Of a stretch of 64,000 nucleotides of DNA, positions 10,230 to 15,163 are shown one piece after another; the first letter of the stretch is position 1, and every line of letters begins with the position of its first letter. The stretch comes from Oleiharenicola lentus (GTDB lineage: Bacteria > Verrucomicrobiota > Verrucomicrobiia > Opitutales > Opitutaceae): contig NZ_SDHX01000002.1 of assembly GCF_004118375.1 (NCBI RefSeq), positions 795,001-859,000 of the forward strand, read 5' to 3'. The translations under genes and the position numbers were made by a program. The notes beneath the pieces were generated by a model. It searched no databases. It saw only the letters and a list, made by a program, of their open reading frames with translations, and was not told the DNA's origin.

Positions 10230-11306
10230 TCACTTCCGCGCCACGGGATAGCTCCCCAGCCACTTCACCAGCGGGCACTTCTTGCTGAGCTCCTTGAGGG
10301 CCGCCTGCATCGCCGGGTCGTCGTAGTGGCCGGTGACGTCGAGGAAGAAGATGTAGTCCCACGGCTTCAGCTTGCTCGGACGCGACTCGATGCGCGTGAG
10401 GTTGAGCTTGCGGCGGTTGAAGGGCGCGAGCGCGTGCAGCAGTGCGCCGGGCTCGTGGTGCAGCGACACCAGCAGGCTCGTCTTGTCGTGGCCGCTGCCG
10501 GCCGAGCCCGAGGCCTCGCGGCCGAGGAAGACGAAGCGCGAGGTGTTGGTCTTGAGATCCTGGATGTGCGTGGCGGCAACCGGCACGCCGTAACGCTCGC
10601 CCGCCAGACGCGGGGCGATGGCGGCGGCGCCCTTCTCCTTGGCGGCGATCTGCACGCCGTAGGCCGTGCTGTCCACGTCCACGAGCTGCGCATGCGGCAA
10701 ATGGCGCTGCAGCCAGCGGCGGCACTGGGCGAGAGCCTGGTCCTTGGAATAGACCTTCTTGATCTTCGCCAGCGGCTCGTTCGAGAGGAGCGTGTGCTCA
10801 ATTTCCTGGTGCAGCTCGGCGACGATCTTGAGGGGGGTCTCGACGAAGAGGTCGAGCGAGTCGCGCACGGAGCCCTCGGTGGAATTTTCCACCGGCACGA
10901 CGCCGTAGTCGGCCTCGCCCTTTTCGACGGCGGTGAAGATGTCGGCGATGGTCGCCATCGGCCGGTAGTCCACGCTGGAACCGAACTTGCGGAGGGCGGC
11001 GGCGTGGGTGTTGGTCGCCTCGGGCCCGAGGTAGGCGACGCACATCGGCTTCTCGAGCGAGATGGCGGCCGACATGATCTCGCGGTAGATGGCCTGGAGG
11101 GCGGCGGGCTTGAGCGGGCCGGTGTTGGCGGCGGCCACGCGGCGAAGGACGTCGGCCTCGCGCTCGGCGACGTAGATGCGGGACTTGGCGCCGCGCTTCA
11201 GTTCGCCGATCTTCTGGGCGCACTTCAGGCGCGTGTTGAGGAGCCGCACGACCTTTTGGTCGATGGCGTCGATCTCGGTGCGAATCTGGGCGAGTTCCTT
11301 CTTCAT
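10230..11306 (-). CDS. pheA: Bifunctional chorismate mutase / prephenate dehydratase (P-protein)
   Basis: 358 aa. It converts chorismate to prephenate and then phenylpyruvate, the committed steps to phenylalanine. An AroQ-type mutase domain covers residues 1-85 (IRTEIDAIDQKVVRLLNTR, then KIGELKR and YREIMSAA). The prephenate dehydratase domain spans about 92-270 (VAYLGPEATNTHAAALRKFG, VPVENSTEGSV and the TSRF motif near its end). The C-terminal ACT domain (about 283-350) has PGALLHAL and the Phe-binding ESRPS motif, so feedback inhibition by Phe is expected. It is downstream of the DAHP synthase gene by 93 nt, probably co-transcribed and controlled by the Phe leader upstream. Confidence 0.97.
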   Translation of the reverse strand: MKKELAQIRTEIDAIDQKVVRLLNTRLKCAQKIGELKRGAKSRIYVAEREADVLRRVAAANTGPLKPAALQAIYREIMSAAISLEKPMCVAYLGPEATNTHAAALRKFGSSVDYRPMATIADIFTAVEKGEADYGVVPVENSTEGSVRDSLDLFVETPLKIVAELHQEIEHTLLSNEPLAKIKKVYSKDQALAQCRRWLQRHLPHAQLVDVDSTAYGVQIAAKEKGAAAIAPRLAGERYGVPVAATHIQDLKTNTSRFVFLGREASGSAGSGHDKTSLLVSLHHEPGALLHALAPFNRRKLNLTRIESRPSKLKPWDYIFFLDVTGHYDDPAMQAALKELSKKCPLVKWLGSYPVARK

Positions 11307-11380
11307 GACTGGGCGACGGAGCGAAAAGTAGGGCCGGTCTATGACCGGCAGATGGGAGAGATGGAAAGTTGGCGGAGGGA

Positions 11381-11400
11381 GTCCGGTCGGAGACCGGACC
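11381..11400. repeat. Short palindrome GTCCGGTCGGAGACCGGACC
   Basis: A diverged member of the GGTCTCCG family lying between pheA and aroF. Its last base is the final base of the aroF stop codon (11400-11402, minus strand). It could form a small hairpin within the aroF-pheA transcript. Confidence 0.45.
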
Positions 11401-12449
11401 TACAGGGTGGCGGTGCGTGGGGAGCGGCGGGCAGCATGGAGCGCCTTGGCGTCCTTAATCAACCCCGCAAGCACGGCGGGCGTGACGGCCTGCTTCGGGT
11501 CGTCGCCGAGCCCGCGGGACGGCTCGACATGGGCCTCGATGCAGAGGCCGTCGGCGCCATAGGCCACGGCCGCGAGCGCACAGGCCGGCACATAGTGGGC
11601 CTTGCCGACCGAGTGCGAGGGATCGACGACGACGGGCGCCCAGGTGCGCTCCTTGAGCAGCGGCGTGATGGATTCGTCGGGGTGGTTGCGGTAGCCATCG
11701 AGGCCGGGCTGCGTGCCGCGCGGGCAAAGGATGACGTTGGGGTTGCCGAAATTGACGATGTATTCGGCGGCGGAGATGAACTCGTTGAGCGTGCCGGTGT
11801 GCATGCCGCGCTTCAGGAGGACGGCGACGGGTTTGCCCGCGATGGCGGCGCCGACCTGGCGGAGGAGCGAATAGTTGAGGGCGTTGCGGGCGCCGATCTG
11901 CAGCACCTGCACGCCGGCGGCGAGGGCGAGCTTCAACTGCTCCTCGTCCATCACCTCGGTGTCCACCGGCAGGCCGGTGCGGCGCGAGCCCTCCATGAGG
12001 ATGTCGAGCGACTTGTTGTCACCCTGGAAGGCGTAGGGGTTGGTGCGGGGCTTCCACACGCCACCGCGGATGGCGTGCGCACCGGCCTCCTTCACGGCCG
12101 CGGCAGTCTCGTAGAAGAGGTTGGGGTTCTTCGGGTCGATCGTGCAGTGACCCGCCATGATGAGCAGATCCTGGCCGAGCGTGACGCCTCCGACCTTCAC
12201 CCGGTGCCGCGCCAGGTCGGACTTGATGTCCATCAGCTTGTGCGGCGACTGGATCGTGTCCACTCGGTCCACGAACTCGAGGCCCTCAAGCCGGTTGATC
12301 ATCAGCTCGTGCCGCTCGTCGCCGACGATGGCGTAGATGGTGCGCACATCGCCGACGATGGGCTGGATGCGGCAGCCGAACTCACCGACGATGGCGCGGA
12401 GCTGATCGACTTCGGGTTCAGTGAGGCGGTTGTTCTTCGGGAGGATCAT
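11400..12449 (-). CDS. aroF: 3-deoxy-7-phosphoheptulonate synthase, type I-beta
   Basis: 349 aa. It condenses PEP and erythrose-4-phosphate in the first step of the shikimate pathway. An N-terminal ferredoxin-like domain (about 1-70) precedes the TIM barrel, as in the Thermotoga-type enzyme. Conserved elements are IRGGVWKPRTNPYAFQG, IGARNALNYSLL, LLKRG, VVVDPSHSVGK (metal His), IEAHVEP (metal Glu) and LGDDPKQ (metal Asp). Two deviations from the canonical family are visible: AGHCTID replaces AGPCSVE (the metal Cys is kept), and LCPRG replaces LCERG. It is the first gene of the aroF-pheA operon, behind a Phe-rich leader and terminator. A type I-alpha enzyme is encoded at 21364. Confidence 0.93.
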   Translation of the reverse strand: MILPKNNRLTEPEVDQLRAIVGEFGCRIQPIVGDVRTIYAIVGDERHELMINRLEGLEFVDRVDTIQSPHKLMDIKSDLARHRVKVGGVTLGQDLLIMAGHCTIDPKNPNLFYETAAAVKEAGAHAIRGGVWKPRTNPYAFQGDNKSLDILMEGSRRTGLPVDTEVMDEEQLKLALAAGVQVLQIGARNALNYSLLRQVGAAIAGKPVAVLLKRGMHTGTLNEFISAAEYIVNFGNPNVILCPRGTQPGLDGYRNHPDESITPLLKERTWAPVVVDPSHSVGKAHYVPACALAAVAYGADGLCIEAHVEPSRGLGDDPKQAVTPAVLAGLIKDAKALHAARRSPRTATL

Positions 12450-12498
12450 GGCGGGGGATGAGGCTGGATAGCGAAGGTTGCGGGAGGGGTGGAGCGGA

Positions 12499-12526
12499 AA
12501 ATAAAAAAGCCGCCCGGGCGGGCGGC
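12499..12526 (-). terminator. Intrinsic terminator of the aroF-pheA attenuator
   Basis: On the minus strand GCCGCCC (12526-12520), a 4-nt loop and GGGCGGC (12515-12509) are followed by TTTTTTATTTT (12508-12498). The all-GC 7-bp stem and U-run make a strong Rho-independent terminator. It lies between the leader-peptide stop (12555) and the aroF start (12449). Its 5' arm GCCGCC (12526-12521) can instead pair with GGCGGC (12581-12576) inside the leader ORF, giving an alternative antiterminator. Confidence 0.85.
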
Positions 12527-12554
12527 GGTGGGTCGGGAAGGTCTGGGATTGGGT

Positions 12555-12644
12555 TCAGACGTTGCGCCGGGACAAGCCGCCGTGGTTCTGCGGGGTAAAG
12601 TAACCCGCAAACGTAAAGCTAAAGTTGGCGGCGAACCGGTTCAT
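12555..12644 (-). CDS. Phe/Tyr-rich leader peptide of the aroF-pheA operon
   Basis: A 29-codon ORF, ATG at 12642-12644 and TGA at 12555-12557. It begins MNRFAANFSFTFAGYF: five Phe and one Tyr fall within residues 4-16. It precedes a strong intrinsic terminator by about 28 nt, and the first structural gene by 105 nt. Leader codons around Thr-Phe/Tyr form a GGGU-UACUUU-ACCC hairpin. The following His-Gly-Gly codons can pair with the 5' arm of the terminator. This is the classical layout of amino-acid attenuation: stalling at Phe codons would favour the antiterminator. No strong Shine-Dalgarno sequence is visible in front of the ATG. The function is inferred from architecture; the peptide itself needs no activity. 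Confidence 0.78.
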   Translation of the reverse strand: MNRFAANFSFTFAGYFTPQNHGGLSRRNV

Positions 12645-12651
12645 TGGCCAA

Positions 12652-12681
12652 TGACAGAGCCCGGCCGAAGGCTCGCTGTCA
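12652..12681. repeat. Imperfect hairpin upstream of the Phe leader
   Basis: TGACAGAGCC and GGCTCGCTGTCA form an interrupted inverted repeat just 5' of the leader ATG on the minus strand. It could be the 3' end signal of the upstream FAD oxidoreductase gene, an operator, or another dispersed repeat; the sequence alone does not decide. Confidence 0.45.
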
Positions 12682-12712
12682 ATGCTGGAGGGCACGTCTC
12701 CCGATGTGCCGC

Positions 12713-12732
12713 GGCCCAGCTGGAGCTGGGCC
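12713..12732. repeat. CAGCTGGAGCTG-family palindrome, copy 1
   Basis: GGCCCAGCTGGAGCTGGGCC, a near-perfect 20-bp palindrome immediately downstream of the FAD oxidoreductase stop codon. Relatives are at 16093-16112 and 16140-16159. The position suggests a role at transcript 3' ends. Confidence 0.6.
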
Positions 12733-12752
12733 CTCCCAAAGGGATTCGCCCT

Positions 12753-13901
12753 CTAAAATTCACGCCCCGCCCGCCGCGCATGCTCGCGGGCTTTCGCCAG
12801 CGCTCCGGCCCAGGCCGAAGTCTGCCCGCAGGCCAGCCGCGCTGCCGCGCGAGCGCCGAGCACACCGACGATGTTGCCCGTGCCGTTGTAGCCGCCCACG
12901 GCCCAGATCTTCGGGCGGACTTCTTCCAGGATCGGCAAACCGTCGGGCGTATAGCCGACCGAGGCGGCCCACCGATGCGTGATCGGGGCGCGGACTTTGA
13001 GGTGTTGGCGGAGAAACTTCTCCTGCAAGGCCTGGATGCGCTCGGTGGGAAAATCGTCCGCCGTCCATTCCTCGCCCAGCGCGTGATCGCGGAACCCGCC
13101 CAACGCGATGCTCCGGTCGGGCAGCTGCTGCCAGTATTCATAACCCTGCCGGTAGTAAACCGGCCGCGGAAAGTCCGCCTCCGGCGCCGGGGCGGTCGCG
13201 AGCATCTGCAGGCGTGCCGTGCGCACCCGGCCGGCCAGTTCGGGCAGCACCTGTTCCAACCGGCCGTCCACCGCCACGATCACCGAATCGCAATAGACCG
13301 TGCCCTTGTCGGTCACGACGGAGCCCGGCACGATTTTCCGCACGGCAGAATCCTCGTAAAGCCGCACCTCGCGCTGGCGCAGGCGCTGCGCCACGGCGCG
13401 CACCCGGTGCAGCGGTTGGATGACGCCATCCGTGGGGAGCAGCAGCCCCTCGCCCTCGGGTCCGGCGTAGGGCTCGGCGGCGAAACCGCAGTAGCGCAGC
13501 GCCGCGAGGTGCTTGGCGCAGTCGGCCTTTTCGTCCGCATCCGCGGCGATGCGCAGAGAACCGGTCACGCGCACGATGGCGGGCATGTCTTCGGCCTGCC
13601 GTTCGATTTCCCCGGCCGTCAGGCGGTAGAGGGTGCGCGCGGCCTCCTCGCCAAACTGCGCCACCGTCTCGTTGAAAAACTTCGCCAGCCCCGCGAGCAC
13701 GAAGCCGCCGTTGCGTCCCGCCGCGCCCGCGCCCACCGAAAACGCATCGAGCCCGACCACCGCCACGTCCTGGGACACCAGCTCCTCCACCGCCGCCAGA
13801 CCCGAGGCCCCCAGGCCAATCACGCAGACATCGGCGCGCTGCGGGCCGGTGAGCTTCGGCAAGGGGCGCCAGTCGCGGTCATCCCAGATCGGCGTGTTCA
13901 T
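12753..13901 (-). CDS. FAD-dependent oxidoreductase (DAO family)
   Basis: 382 aa from the ATG at 13901. The reading frame is open further upstream, but that part overlaps a dispersed repeat at 13973-14010, so the internal Met is preferred. The N-terminal ADP-binding motif is CVIGLGASGLAAVEEL, followed by GAAGRNGGFVLAG, a signature of D-amino-acid-oxidase-like flavoproteins such as the gamma-glutamylputrescine oxidoreductases. C-terminal motifs RWAASVGYTPDGLPIL and VGGYNGTGNIVG fit the FAD-binding closure of the family. It likely oxidises an amine or amino acid; the substrate is unknown. It is convergent to nothing and monocistronic by appearance, lying upstream of the aroF leader on the same strand. 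Confidence 0.85.
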   Translation of the reverse strand: MNTPIWDDRDWRPLPKLTGPQRADVCVIGLGASGLAAVEELVSQDVAVVGLDAFSVGAGAAGRNGGFVLAGLAKFFNETVAQFGEEAARTLYRLTAGEIERQAEDMPAIVRVTGSLRIAADADEKADCAKHLAALRYCGFAAEPYAGPEGEGLLLPTDGVIQPLHRVRAVAQRLRQREVRLYEDSAVRKIVPGSVVTDKGTVYCDSVIVAVDGRLEQVLPELAGRVRTARLQMLATAPAPEADFPRPVYYRQGYEYWQQLPDRSIALGGFRDHALGEEWTADDFPTERIQALQEKFLRQHLKVRAPITHRWAASVGYTPDGLPILEEVRPKIWAVGGYNGTGNIVGVLGARAAARLACGQTSAWAGALAKAREHARRAGREF

Positions 13902-13972
13902 GCGGGCGAGTGTGCGCAGCCCGACGATGCCCGCCAGCGGATTGTTCCGCCGCGTGGGCGGCCGGCTCGCCC

Positions 13973-14010
13973 GTTCGACAAGTTCAGGGCCTCGAGCCTG
14001 TCGAGAGGCT
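13973..14010. repeat. Interspersed repeat, GTTCGACAAGTTCAGG...GAGCCTGTCGAG family, copy 2
   Basis: GTTCGACAAGTTCAGGGCC is followed at once by TCGAGCCTGTCGAGAGG, the same paired arms as at 8316-8370 but with a shorter spacer. It lies between the DUF481 gene and the FAD oxidoreductase. Confidence 0.6.
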
Positions 14011-14066
14011 GGCGACTCTCCGTTGGCCTGCGTGGCGTGAGCCAGCTCACCGCCCACATTCCAGCC

Positions 14067-15041
14067 TCACCAGATGTAACCGAGCGAGGTCGTCAGGCGC
14101 TGGTCGGCGCGGAGGTTGGCATCAATGACCGAACGGTCATAGTCGTATTCAAAGCGCAGGTTGAGCGACATCTTGTCGGTAACCTTGCTCTGCAGCCCGC
14201 TGTTGAACTTAACGCGGTAGCTGCCCTCGGCGGGCGCGTTCGCCACCGTGCTGCGCACGCCGAGCGCCCCTTTGTCGGAGATCATCAAACTCGACTCCTG
14301 GGTGAGCTTGACCCGGCTGTTGAGTTCGTAGGCGTAATCCTGGAAGAAAGAGCCCAGCAGCGCCGTTTCGGGTTTGGCCTCCTCCCGGTCGAGATACTGC
14401 AACACCGCGCCCAGGCCGACGTTGGCCTTGTGCCGCTTGCCGTCCACCACCCGGTAACCGCCGCCCACCTGTTGCTCCAGGCTGAGGTCGATCTTGCGCA
14501 CGCCGTCCTCGGCATAAGTGGTCAGTGCCTGGGCGAAGAGCCGCTTGTTGATGTCATAGCGCCAGCGAAAATCGGCCTCGCGGCGGTCGGTCACCGTCTT
14601 GCTGTCGGCCTCGGTCTCCAGCAGCTTGGCCGTGCCACGGAACGTGTTCTTGCCCTCCTTGCCGTCGATCTGGAAGCGGGCCGACAAGTCCTGCTTCTCC
14701 TTGGCGCCGGACTGCTGGGAGAACCCCACCTCGACCTGCCGCTTCCACTTGGGCACGGTCGGTTTCACGGCGGTCGAAGCCTCGGTCTTGGCCACGGGTT
14801 TGTCCGCCACGCCTTCCGGCTTCGTGGCGGGATCAGCCTTCAACGCCGAACGCGGCACTTTCAGCCGGCCGAGCTGCGGATGCTGCACCTCGATAAACAC
14901 ACTGTCCTCGCTGATCACCGTGCCGGTCAGCCGGTCGCCGTTGGCCAGCGTCCAAACCTCGGCCCGCCCGGCGATTGCTGCCGTCAGAAGGAGGATCAGG
15001 GAGGCGATTCGGGCGAAGGGAAAAGCGGTCATGGATTTCAT
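14067..15041 (-). CDS. DUF481-type outer-membrane beta-barrel protein
   Basis: 324 aa from the ATG at 15041 (MKSMTAFPFARIASLILLL). The signal peptide ends near AIAGRA. The mature N-terminus (VWTLANGDRLTGTVISEDSVFIEVQHPQLG, split here as WTLANGDRLTGTV and FIEVQHPQLG) is an SH3-like segment often found before DUF481. A charged Lys/Ala linker follows, then about 220 residues of alternating amphipathic beta strands ending in LTTSLGYIW, whose terminal aromatic residue is typical of outer-membrane barrels. The role is unknown, perhaps a salt-inducible porin-like protein. The start 5' region overlaps no other gene, and a methyltransferase is transcribed divergently. Confidence 0.82.
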   Translation of the reverse strand: MKSMTAFPFARIASLILLLTAAIAGRAEVWTLANGDRLTGTVISEDSVFIEVQHPQLGRLKVPRSALKADPATKPEGVADKPVAKTEASTAVKPTVPKWKRQVEVGFSQQSGAKEKQDLSARFQIDGKEGKNTFRGTAKLLETEADSKTVTDRREADFRWRYDINKRLFAQALTTYAEDGVRKIDLSLEQQVGGGYRVVDGKRHKANVGLGAVLQYLDREEAKPETALLGSFFQDYAYELNSRVKLTQESSLMISDKGALGVRSTVANAPAEGSYRVKFNSGLQSKVTDKMSLNLRFEYDYDRSVIDANLRADQRLTTSLGYIW

Positions 15042-15163
15042 CCTAGCAAAAGTTGGTGCGGCCGGGAACCCCGGATTTCGGCGAATTTGACTCACAACCG
15101 ACGATTTCGTTCCGGCGATTGACGCAGAACGTGCCGGCCGCCTTGATGCGGGCGCTCCGTCGC

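Follow-up and report, generated by a model that had tools for sequence, protein, structure and literature searches.

Attenuation by translation of a leader peptide is a textbook kind of mechanism, and Phe_leader is the Rfam name for the attenuator family of Escherichia coli pheL-pheA. In E. coli, the leader peptide controls pheA by the mechanism outlined in PMC11802643. The aroR-aroF attenuator of Corynebacterium glutamicum was reported by Neshat et al. 2014 and is taken here as described in PMC11802643 and PMC7356990. These two are the nearest systems in function to the locus presented here. Leaderless leader peptides have been reported in Streptomyces lividans (PMC8079986), and Cys leaders of mycobacteria by Canestrari et al. 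2020, as referenced in PMC13236596. According to the available passages of Naville and Gautheret 2010, leader-peptide attenuation was known from Proteobacteria and Actinobacteria only before that study added a case in bacilli (PMC2965389), and there are clues to leader-peptide attenuation in a flavobacterium (PMC9723704). Neither PMC11683593 nor PMC11611912, in the portions available, concerns biosynthetic attenuators of Verrucomicrobiota, and a 2010 comparative study of attenuation cited in PMC4833913 may hold an earlier prediction. We found no description of leader-peptide attenuation in Verrucomicrobiota in the open-licence literature, in agreement with a sequence-only reading of the present locus, which knew of none in the phylum. 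The Verrucomicrobiota setting, the probable leaderless start and the shared switch module described below are apparently unreported.

The locus lies in a 64,000-nucleotide stretch of the Oleiharenicola lentus genome, which as a whole we call the window. Its aroF-pheA leader is, with high confidence, predicted to be a ribosome-mediated transcription attenuator that reads charged tRNA-Phe and, probably to a lesser extent, tRNA-Tyr.

The aroF-pheA leader of O. lentus

The sequence-only reading had described a 29-codon ORF with five Phe and one Tyr in residues 4-16, a strong GC-stem/U-run terminator behind it, and DAHP synthase and P-protein genes downstream. The ORF and the terminator were found as described, and both genes were confirmed by domain matches. 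The parts are as follows.

12555-12644 (-), leader peptide ORF, MNRFAANFSFTFAGYFTPQNHGGLSRRNV, 29 codons and a stop, from the sequence and the leaders of relatives
12597-12635 (-), control codons in the sequence: F4 TTC; F8, F10, F12 and F16 TTT; Y15 TAC
12509-12526 (-), terminator hairpin 3:4, 7 G-C pairs, loop of 4
12503-12508 (-), terminator T-run, TTTTTT
11400-12449 (-), DAHP synthase, aroF-like, first regulated gene, PF00793 and PF18152 (ferredoxin-like domain)
10230-11306 (-), pheA, chorismate mutase, prephenate dehydratase and ACT domains, second regulated gene

Phe thus occupies residues 4, 8, 10, 12 and 16 of the peptide and Tyr residue 15. Among the ATG or GTG ORFs 15-40 codons long, exactly one in the 64-kb window packs five or more Phe into 13 residues. 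It is the leader ORF, and a T-tailed hairpin lies no more than 80 nt from it. Twenty first-order Markov windows of equal composition contained zero ORFs of this kind. The leader peptide matched no Pfam or NCBIfam family. Two antisense ORFs, 12489-15122 (+) and 10326-12461 (+), matched no NCBIfam model and were set aside as mechanical.

Recurrence of the leader among relatives

DAHP synthase was searched in 100 genomes of the window's family, which as delimited here also includes Pelagicoccus, and the DNA upstream was read, together with 80 named GTDB loci. From the resulting 169 loci we dropped three with a partial 5' end, 16 duplicates (same first 600 bases of the gene) and two with less than 150 nt upstream. 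Of the 148 distinct loci that could be scored, 39, counting that of O. lentus, carry an aromatic leader ORF and a GCCGCC terminator ahead of DAHP synthase. No leader was found in the other 109 within the 420 nt upstream to which the search was limited, and displaced leaders may be missed. Leader-negative loci include Pelagicoccus and loci labelled Chthoniobacteraceae, Verrucomicrobiaceae and Spirochaetota. By DAHP synthase identity, an Opitutus MAG stands closest among the named relatives at 94%, followed by an Opitutaceae MAG at 92%.

The sequence-only reading had held that its proposal would fail if relatives lacked the ORF or its Phe codons. This is true of the 109 loci without a leader and untrue of the 39, which have ORF, aromatic codons and terminator and which comprise all 17 with pheA. 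Every one of the 39 leader ORFs keeps aromatic codons, with 3-7 Phe per peptide, and apart from the aromatic residues the sequence is free to vary. Of the 1057 residues in these leaders, 18.5% are F and 7.8% are Y; the leaders were themselves selected for aromatic content.

A co-directional oxidoreductase gene (12753-13898) ends about 226 nt before the hairpin, as would be expected if the hairpin were a mere terminator of that gene and the Phe-rich ORF accidental. However, just 11 of the 39 leader loci showed a relative of this gene upstream (flanks are unequal, one being 93 nt); the ORF, the switch and the terminator are retained regardless, and the aromatic codons kept in 39/39 leaders speak against an accidental ORF. 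With no oxidoreductase relative detected in the remaining 28 (unequal flanks), we rejected this reading as highly improbable.

The DAHP synthases labelled Spirochaetota (L163, L164, L166-L169, L171 and L172) are 64-67% identical to the O. lentus enzyme, which suggests transfer between phyla or mislabelled MAGs. The enzyme of L126, a locus that bears the label Akkermansia muciniphila, clusters with that of an Opitutaceae MAG.

Operon partner and control codons

The gene pheA adjoins aroF in 17 of the 39 leader loci, and all 17 pheA-adjacent loci found carry the leader. It was absent from the fetched DNA of all 109 leader-negative loci (6 of them with less than 600 nt downstream); one of the 22 leader loci without pheA likewise has less than 600 nt downstream. 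A Trp codon is present in the leader at 18 of the 22 aroF loci without pheA versus 0 of the 17 pheA-linked ones. This contrast fits the pathway, because DAHP synthase by itself supplies Phe, Tyr and Trp alike. It counts as one event since the 17 pheA-linked copies form one clade, and for that reason the Fisher value was not used as a probability.

The Phe codons are also distinctive in kind: TTT and TTC stand at 139:57 in the leaders versus 61:189 in the DAHP synthase genes that follow them. Attenuator sensitivity depends, in theory, on which synonymous codon is used, as the available part of PMC1183508 states. In the present leaders TTT would be the sensitive Phe codon.

Probable promoter and probable leaderless start

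The sequence-only reading was silent on three features: the probable leaderless start, an intra-ORF hairpin, and the further attenuators of the same genome. The first concerns the following elements.

12677-12682 (-), TTGACA, probable -35 element, placed 38 nt ahead of the leader ORF's start codon and identified by recurrence
12654-12659 (-), CTCTGT, probable -10 position after a 17-nt spacer, identified by column counts; relatives mostly have CA-N4-T

Of the 39 leaders, 38 have TTGACA, whose distance to the start codon is 36-38 nt in 37 and 41 nt in one; the leader search rewarded TTGACA within 34-43 nt of the start, and the start of L138 was set to GTG, not TTG. Among 36 tabulated leaders, C follows the 17-nt spacer in 36, A comes next in 33 and T stands five further on in 29. 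The -10 position of O. lentus is poor, lacking the usual A and T, and a strict scan for a sigma-70 consensus promoter at this locus found none. The usual sigma-70 geometry would place the transcript start 0-3 nt before the leader start codon.

We believe that the leader ORF is probably leaderless, with its start deduced from the sequence, because TTGACA sits 36-38 nt before the start in 37/38 leaders. This fixed distance is the strong part of the case. None of the 38 leaders has a 4-base Shine-Dalgarno core before the start, and their pairing to a 16S tail is no better than that of shuffled bases. This absence is weak evidence alone, since the DAHP synthase starts also lack such a core (0/38 loci).

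An inverted repeat, TGACA...TGTCA with an inner GAGCC...GGCTC (12652-12681, minus strand), overlaps the probable promoter. It was not seen by eye in the aligned relatives and may be an operator or chance. A REP-like element of ~50 bases with two palindromes (12686-12736, minus strand) occupies part of the stretch that separates the upstream gene from the leader promoter. Another 34 rows match it in the genome (E up to 1e-3), some of which represent a single place on both strands, and Y1_Tnp (REP-associated-transposase-like) has four matches there. By eye, a similar element stands between terminator and aroF in L012.

Alternative pairings in the leader RNA

The leader RNA contains three complementary regions upstream of the last terminator arm, and the hairpin P1.

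12627-12632 (-), region 1, GCCGCC, Ala-Ala codons 5-6, can pair with region 2 in the minimum-energy fold
12590-12608 (-), P1, GCGGG...CCCGC, hairpin inside the ORF from the fold, possible pause hairpin
12576-12581 (-), region 2, GGCGGC, Gly-Gly codons, 5' half of the antiterminator
12521-12526 (-), region 3, GCCGCC, common to antiterminator and terminator

GGCGGC had been read as His-Gly-Gly codons. Its position stands, and it comprises two Gly codons only, preceded by the His codon. As had been claimed, it can pair with the 5' arm of the terminator, being complementary to GCCGCC. The further claim of attenuation through mutually exclusive structures is supported by the 2:3 pairing, in which own partners match better than exchanged ones.

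The full-length fold of the O. lentus leader has regions 1 and 2 paired, P1 and the terminator (z-score -2.3 versus shuffles). The 1:2 hairpin of this fold is weak in truncated transcripts of most leaders, and region 1 is absent from some relatives' leaders. P1 is somewhat stronger than synonymous controls as a mean over 38 leaders (mean z -0.85 and -1.36).

The alignment consists of the 38 leaders with TTGACA, so that the invariance of TTGACA in it is a selection effect. Nor is there any variation in the C that follows the 17-nt spacer, in the TG within the start codon, in the second GGC triplet of region 2 or in the core of the terminator. The ORF ends early in L017, L024 and L053, where the CGGC switch element sits at or right after the stop codon; the switch is therefore conserved as RNA, not as a Gly-Gly peptide.

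The 2:3 pairing joins region 2 and the next 24 nt to region 3 and up to 28 preceding nt, and its extension is specific to clades. Ten leaders, all pheA-linked, pair GCAAA with UUUGC; another 11 pair GCGAA with UUCGC, and none of these is pheA-linked; the third form, in which UAAACUG around the stop codon pairs with CAGAUUUA, occurs in 6 leaders, all of them pheA-linked. One of these three extensions is present in 27/38 leaders and none in 11/38, O. lentus among the latter. A mean of -21.3 kcal/mol was obtained for own 2:3 pairs versus -19.0 for swapped ones, and 0 of 20000 permutations were as good, a figure inflated by relatedness. Against synonymous resampling controls the pairing is only mildly better, at a mean z of about -0.9. 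What the analysis shows is thus the set of parts, how often they recur, and pairings that suit their own partners.

The sequence-only reading had proposed an alignment across Opitutaceae for conserved Phe codons and covarying stems. Aromatic codons are indeed conserved; as to stems, RNAalifold applied to the whole alignment recovered just the terminator, in which both partners have changed at two of six pairs. P1 and the 2:3 helix escape it because their register differs from clade to clade. Swap, resampling and masking tests were therefore used.

Effect of the ribosome in the folding model

We modelled the ribosome as a 30-nt mask, either stalled on the aromatic codons or at the stop codon, with truncated transcripts ending in region 3. 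In these transcripts 37 of 38 leaders give the antiterminator a higher probability with a stalled ribosome than with one at the stop codon. The sole exception is the O. lentus leader (0.79 stalled, 0.84 at stop), whose stop codon lies 18 nt past GGCGGC. In full transcripts the terminator advantage is greater at the stop than stalled in 38/38 leaders, the gap having a median of 11.1 kcal/mol; for the 11 leaders with the stop 18 nt past GGCGGC the median is 5.0 kcal/mol, and for O. lentus the gap is only 2.4. The modelled block of the antiterminator at the stop codon is clear for stops up to 12 nt after GGCGGC and weak for the 18-nt tail of O. lentus. According to the model, a terminating ribosome in the O. 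lentus genus would have to act mostly on the extension, or kinetically while crossing region 2.

The ribosome-free state bears on a variant compatible with the attenuator, namely that read-through is the default. The antiterminator would form without a ribosome, only a translating ribosome would cause termination, and there would be no strong 1:2 anti-antiterminator of the kind known from enteric attenuators. Among the 38 truncated transcripts folded with no ribosome, 30 have an antiterminator probability above 0.5 (median 0.96), and the stalled state surpasses the ribosome-free one in 18, equals it in 19 and falls below it in 1. On the other hand, ribosome-free RNA prefers other pairings in 8/38 leaders (L012, L017, L065, L066, L078, L104, L138 and L144), and the O. 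lentus full-length minimum-energy fold contains 1:2 and the terminator. Complete transcripts at equilibrium also favour the terminator in most leaders and in every ribosome state; the switch would therefore have to be kinetic. We give default read-through a little less than an even chance.

Sister leaders in the O. lentus genome

A covariance model of the leaders was run over 273 genomes of the order. Among the matches listed, full-length ones fall in this family only, 17 with DAHP synthase behind them and five elsewhere. Of these five, the one in O. lentus precedes ilvD-ilvB, and a third leader was recognized by its sequence.

C1:1472737-1472939 (L208:3738-3940) (+), Ile/Leu/Val-rich leader MFSVVAIALITVVLALVAVDTNSTGRLAEVSNS before ilvD-ilvB, a covariance model match
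C1:170526-171086, L271 (-), His-run leader MNLHHHHHHV with hairpins and its own terminator, upstream of hisG

The ilvD-ilvB leader has the same GGCGGC/GCCGCC/GGCGGC switch and terminator as the aroF-pheA leader. The exact pattern of three arms and T occurs at three sites in the 4.7-Mb genome, namely the aroF leader, the ilv leader and one other, and the reversed three-arm pattern occurs nowhere in it. A pattern survey of 150 genomes returned many matches that lack a leader, and reversed ones in some genomes, and was not used as a count. We read ilv-type leaders in 11 genomes chosen by model or pattern matches, and all 8 ilvD orthologues (E up to 1e-200, 100 family genomes) fall among these 11. 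TTGACA or TTGACG stands 41-49 nt upstream in 7/11 and was not found within 60 nt in 4/11, so the leaderless reading is weaker for ilv leaders because the distance is not fixed. The folding model gives no block at the stop codon in 6/11, O. lentus among these.

Five or six consecutive His codons are present in the hisG leaders of 4/4 orthologues (E up to 1e-30, 61 genomes; O. lentus included). The trpE gene of O. lentus has no ORF with two or more Trp within 420 nt upstream.

Attenuators of every class would place a terminator ahead of a biosynthetic operon, and this one might be controlled by a ligand-binding riboswitch or a T-box, the ORF playing no part. Yet no Rfam family reached its gathering score at the leader (only a tRNA elsewhere in the window reached its own), the best permissive matches there being far below gathering scores. 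At another 12 loci, ten of them aroF and two ilv, Rfam leader families, riboswitches and the T-box likewise went unmatched. Codon identity, moreover, tracks the regulated pathway at three operons (aroF-pheA, ilvD-ilvB and hisG). Riboswitch and T-box were rejected for want of Rfam support at the O. lentus leader and the 12 further loci, and their chance of being right is very small.

A joint reading would be a small Opitutaceae attenuator regulon with leaderless or near-leaderless members: aroF with Phe/Tyr or Phe/Tyr/Trp codons, ilvDB with Ile/Leu/Val and hisG with His. Its Phe and ilv members would share the GGCGGC module, read-through would be the default with translation as the off-signal, and the control codons would have been re-tuned, to a set lacking Trp, where aroF shares its operon with pheA. 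This combined reading is made slightly less likely by the ilv leaders, since they do not keep a fixed promoter distance, and we offer it tentatively, with distinctly more doubt than belief.

Proposed mechanism of attenuation

The O. lentus locus has an ORF with codons of its own pathway, a terminator before the first gene and a computed antiterminator that excludes the terminator (by the swap test, with kinship kept; the O. lentus extension is atypical). In the predicted mechanism the promoter, the start point, translation of the leader and the regulatory response are all inferred. Transcription would start 0-3 nt before the leader start codon, and ribosomes would load on the leaderless end of the mRNA. 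When Phe is ample, the ribosome would reach the stop codon and hinder the stretch from GGCGGC onward from pairing with the stretch up to GCCGCC; the GCCGCCC-GCCC-GGGCGGC-U6 terminator would then form. When Phe is scarce, the ribosome would stall in codons 4-16, and GGCGGC and its downstream extension would pair with GCCGCC first. With this antiterminator formed, RNA polymerase would read on into aroF and pheA.

Comparison with known systems

The predicted attenuator extends translation-coupled amino-acid attenuation to Verrucomicrobiota, and it is a case in which peptide, RNA switch and operon vary together. The leader also offers a genetic handle on transcription-translation coupling in this phylum. 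If the leaderless start is true, attenuation without a Shine-Dalgarno start would be possible outside Actinobacteria too.

Like E. coli pheL-pheA, as far as the source describes it, the O. lentus locus places a leader with Phe codons and a predicted attenuation step before a chorismate mutase-prephenate dehydratase gene. Unlike it, the O. lentus leader matches no Rfam leader family, DAHP synthase comes first, and the ORF probably has neither a 5' UTR nor a Shine-Dalgarno sequence. With C. glutamicum aroR-aroF it shares a Phe/Tyr leader peptide before a DAHP synthase gene. The available accounts of aroR give a Phe-Tyr-Phe run in another phylum, whereas the Opitutaceae leaders have 3-7 spread Phe codons, pheA may follow, and the switch is common to an ilv operon. 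The likeness to Actinobacteria would lie in a leaderless short ORF acting as an amino-acid-responsive attenuator, there including trp and ilv/leu genes in the texts available; the phylum and the peptides differ, and the starts come from RNA-seq in those reports and from sequence in ours.
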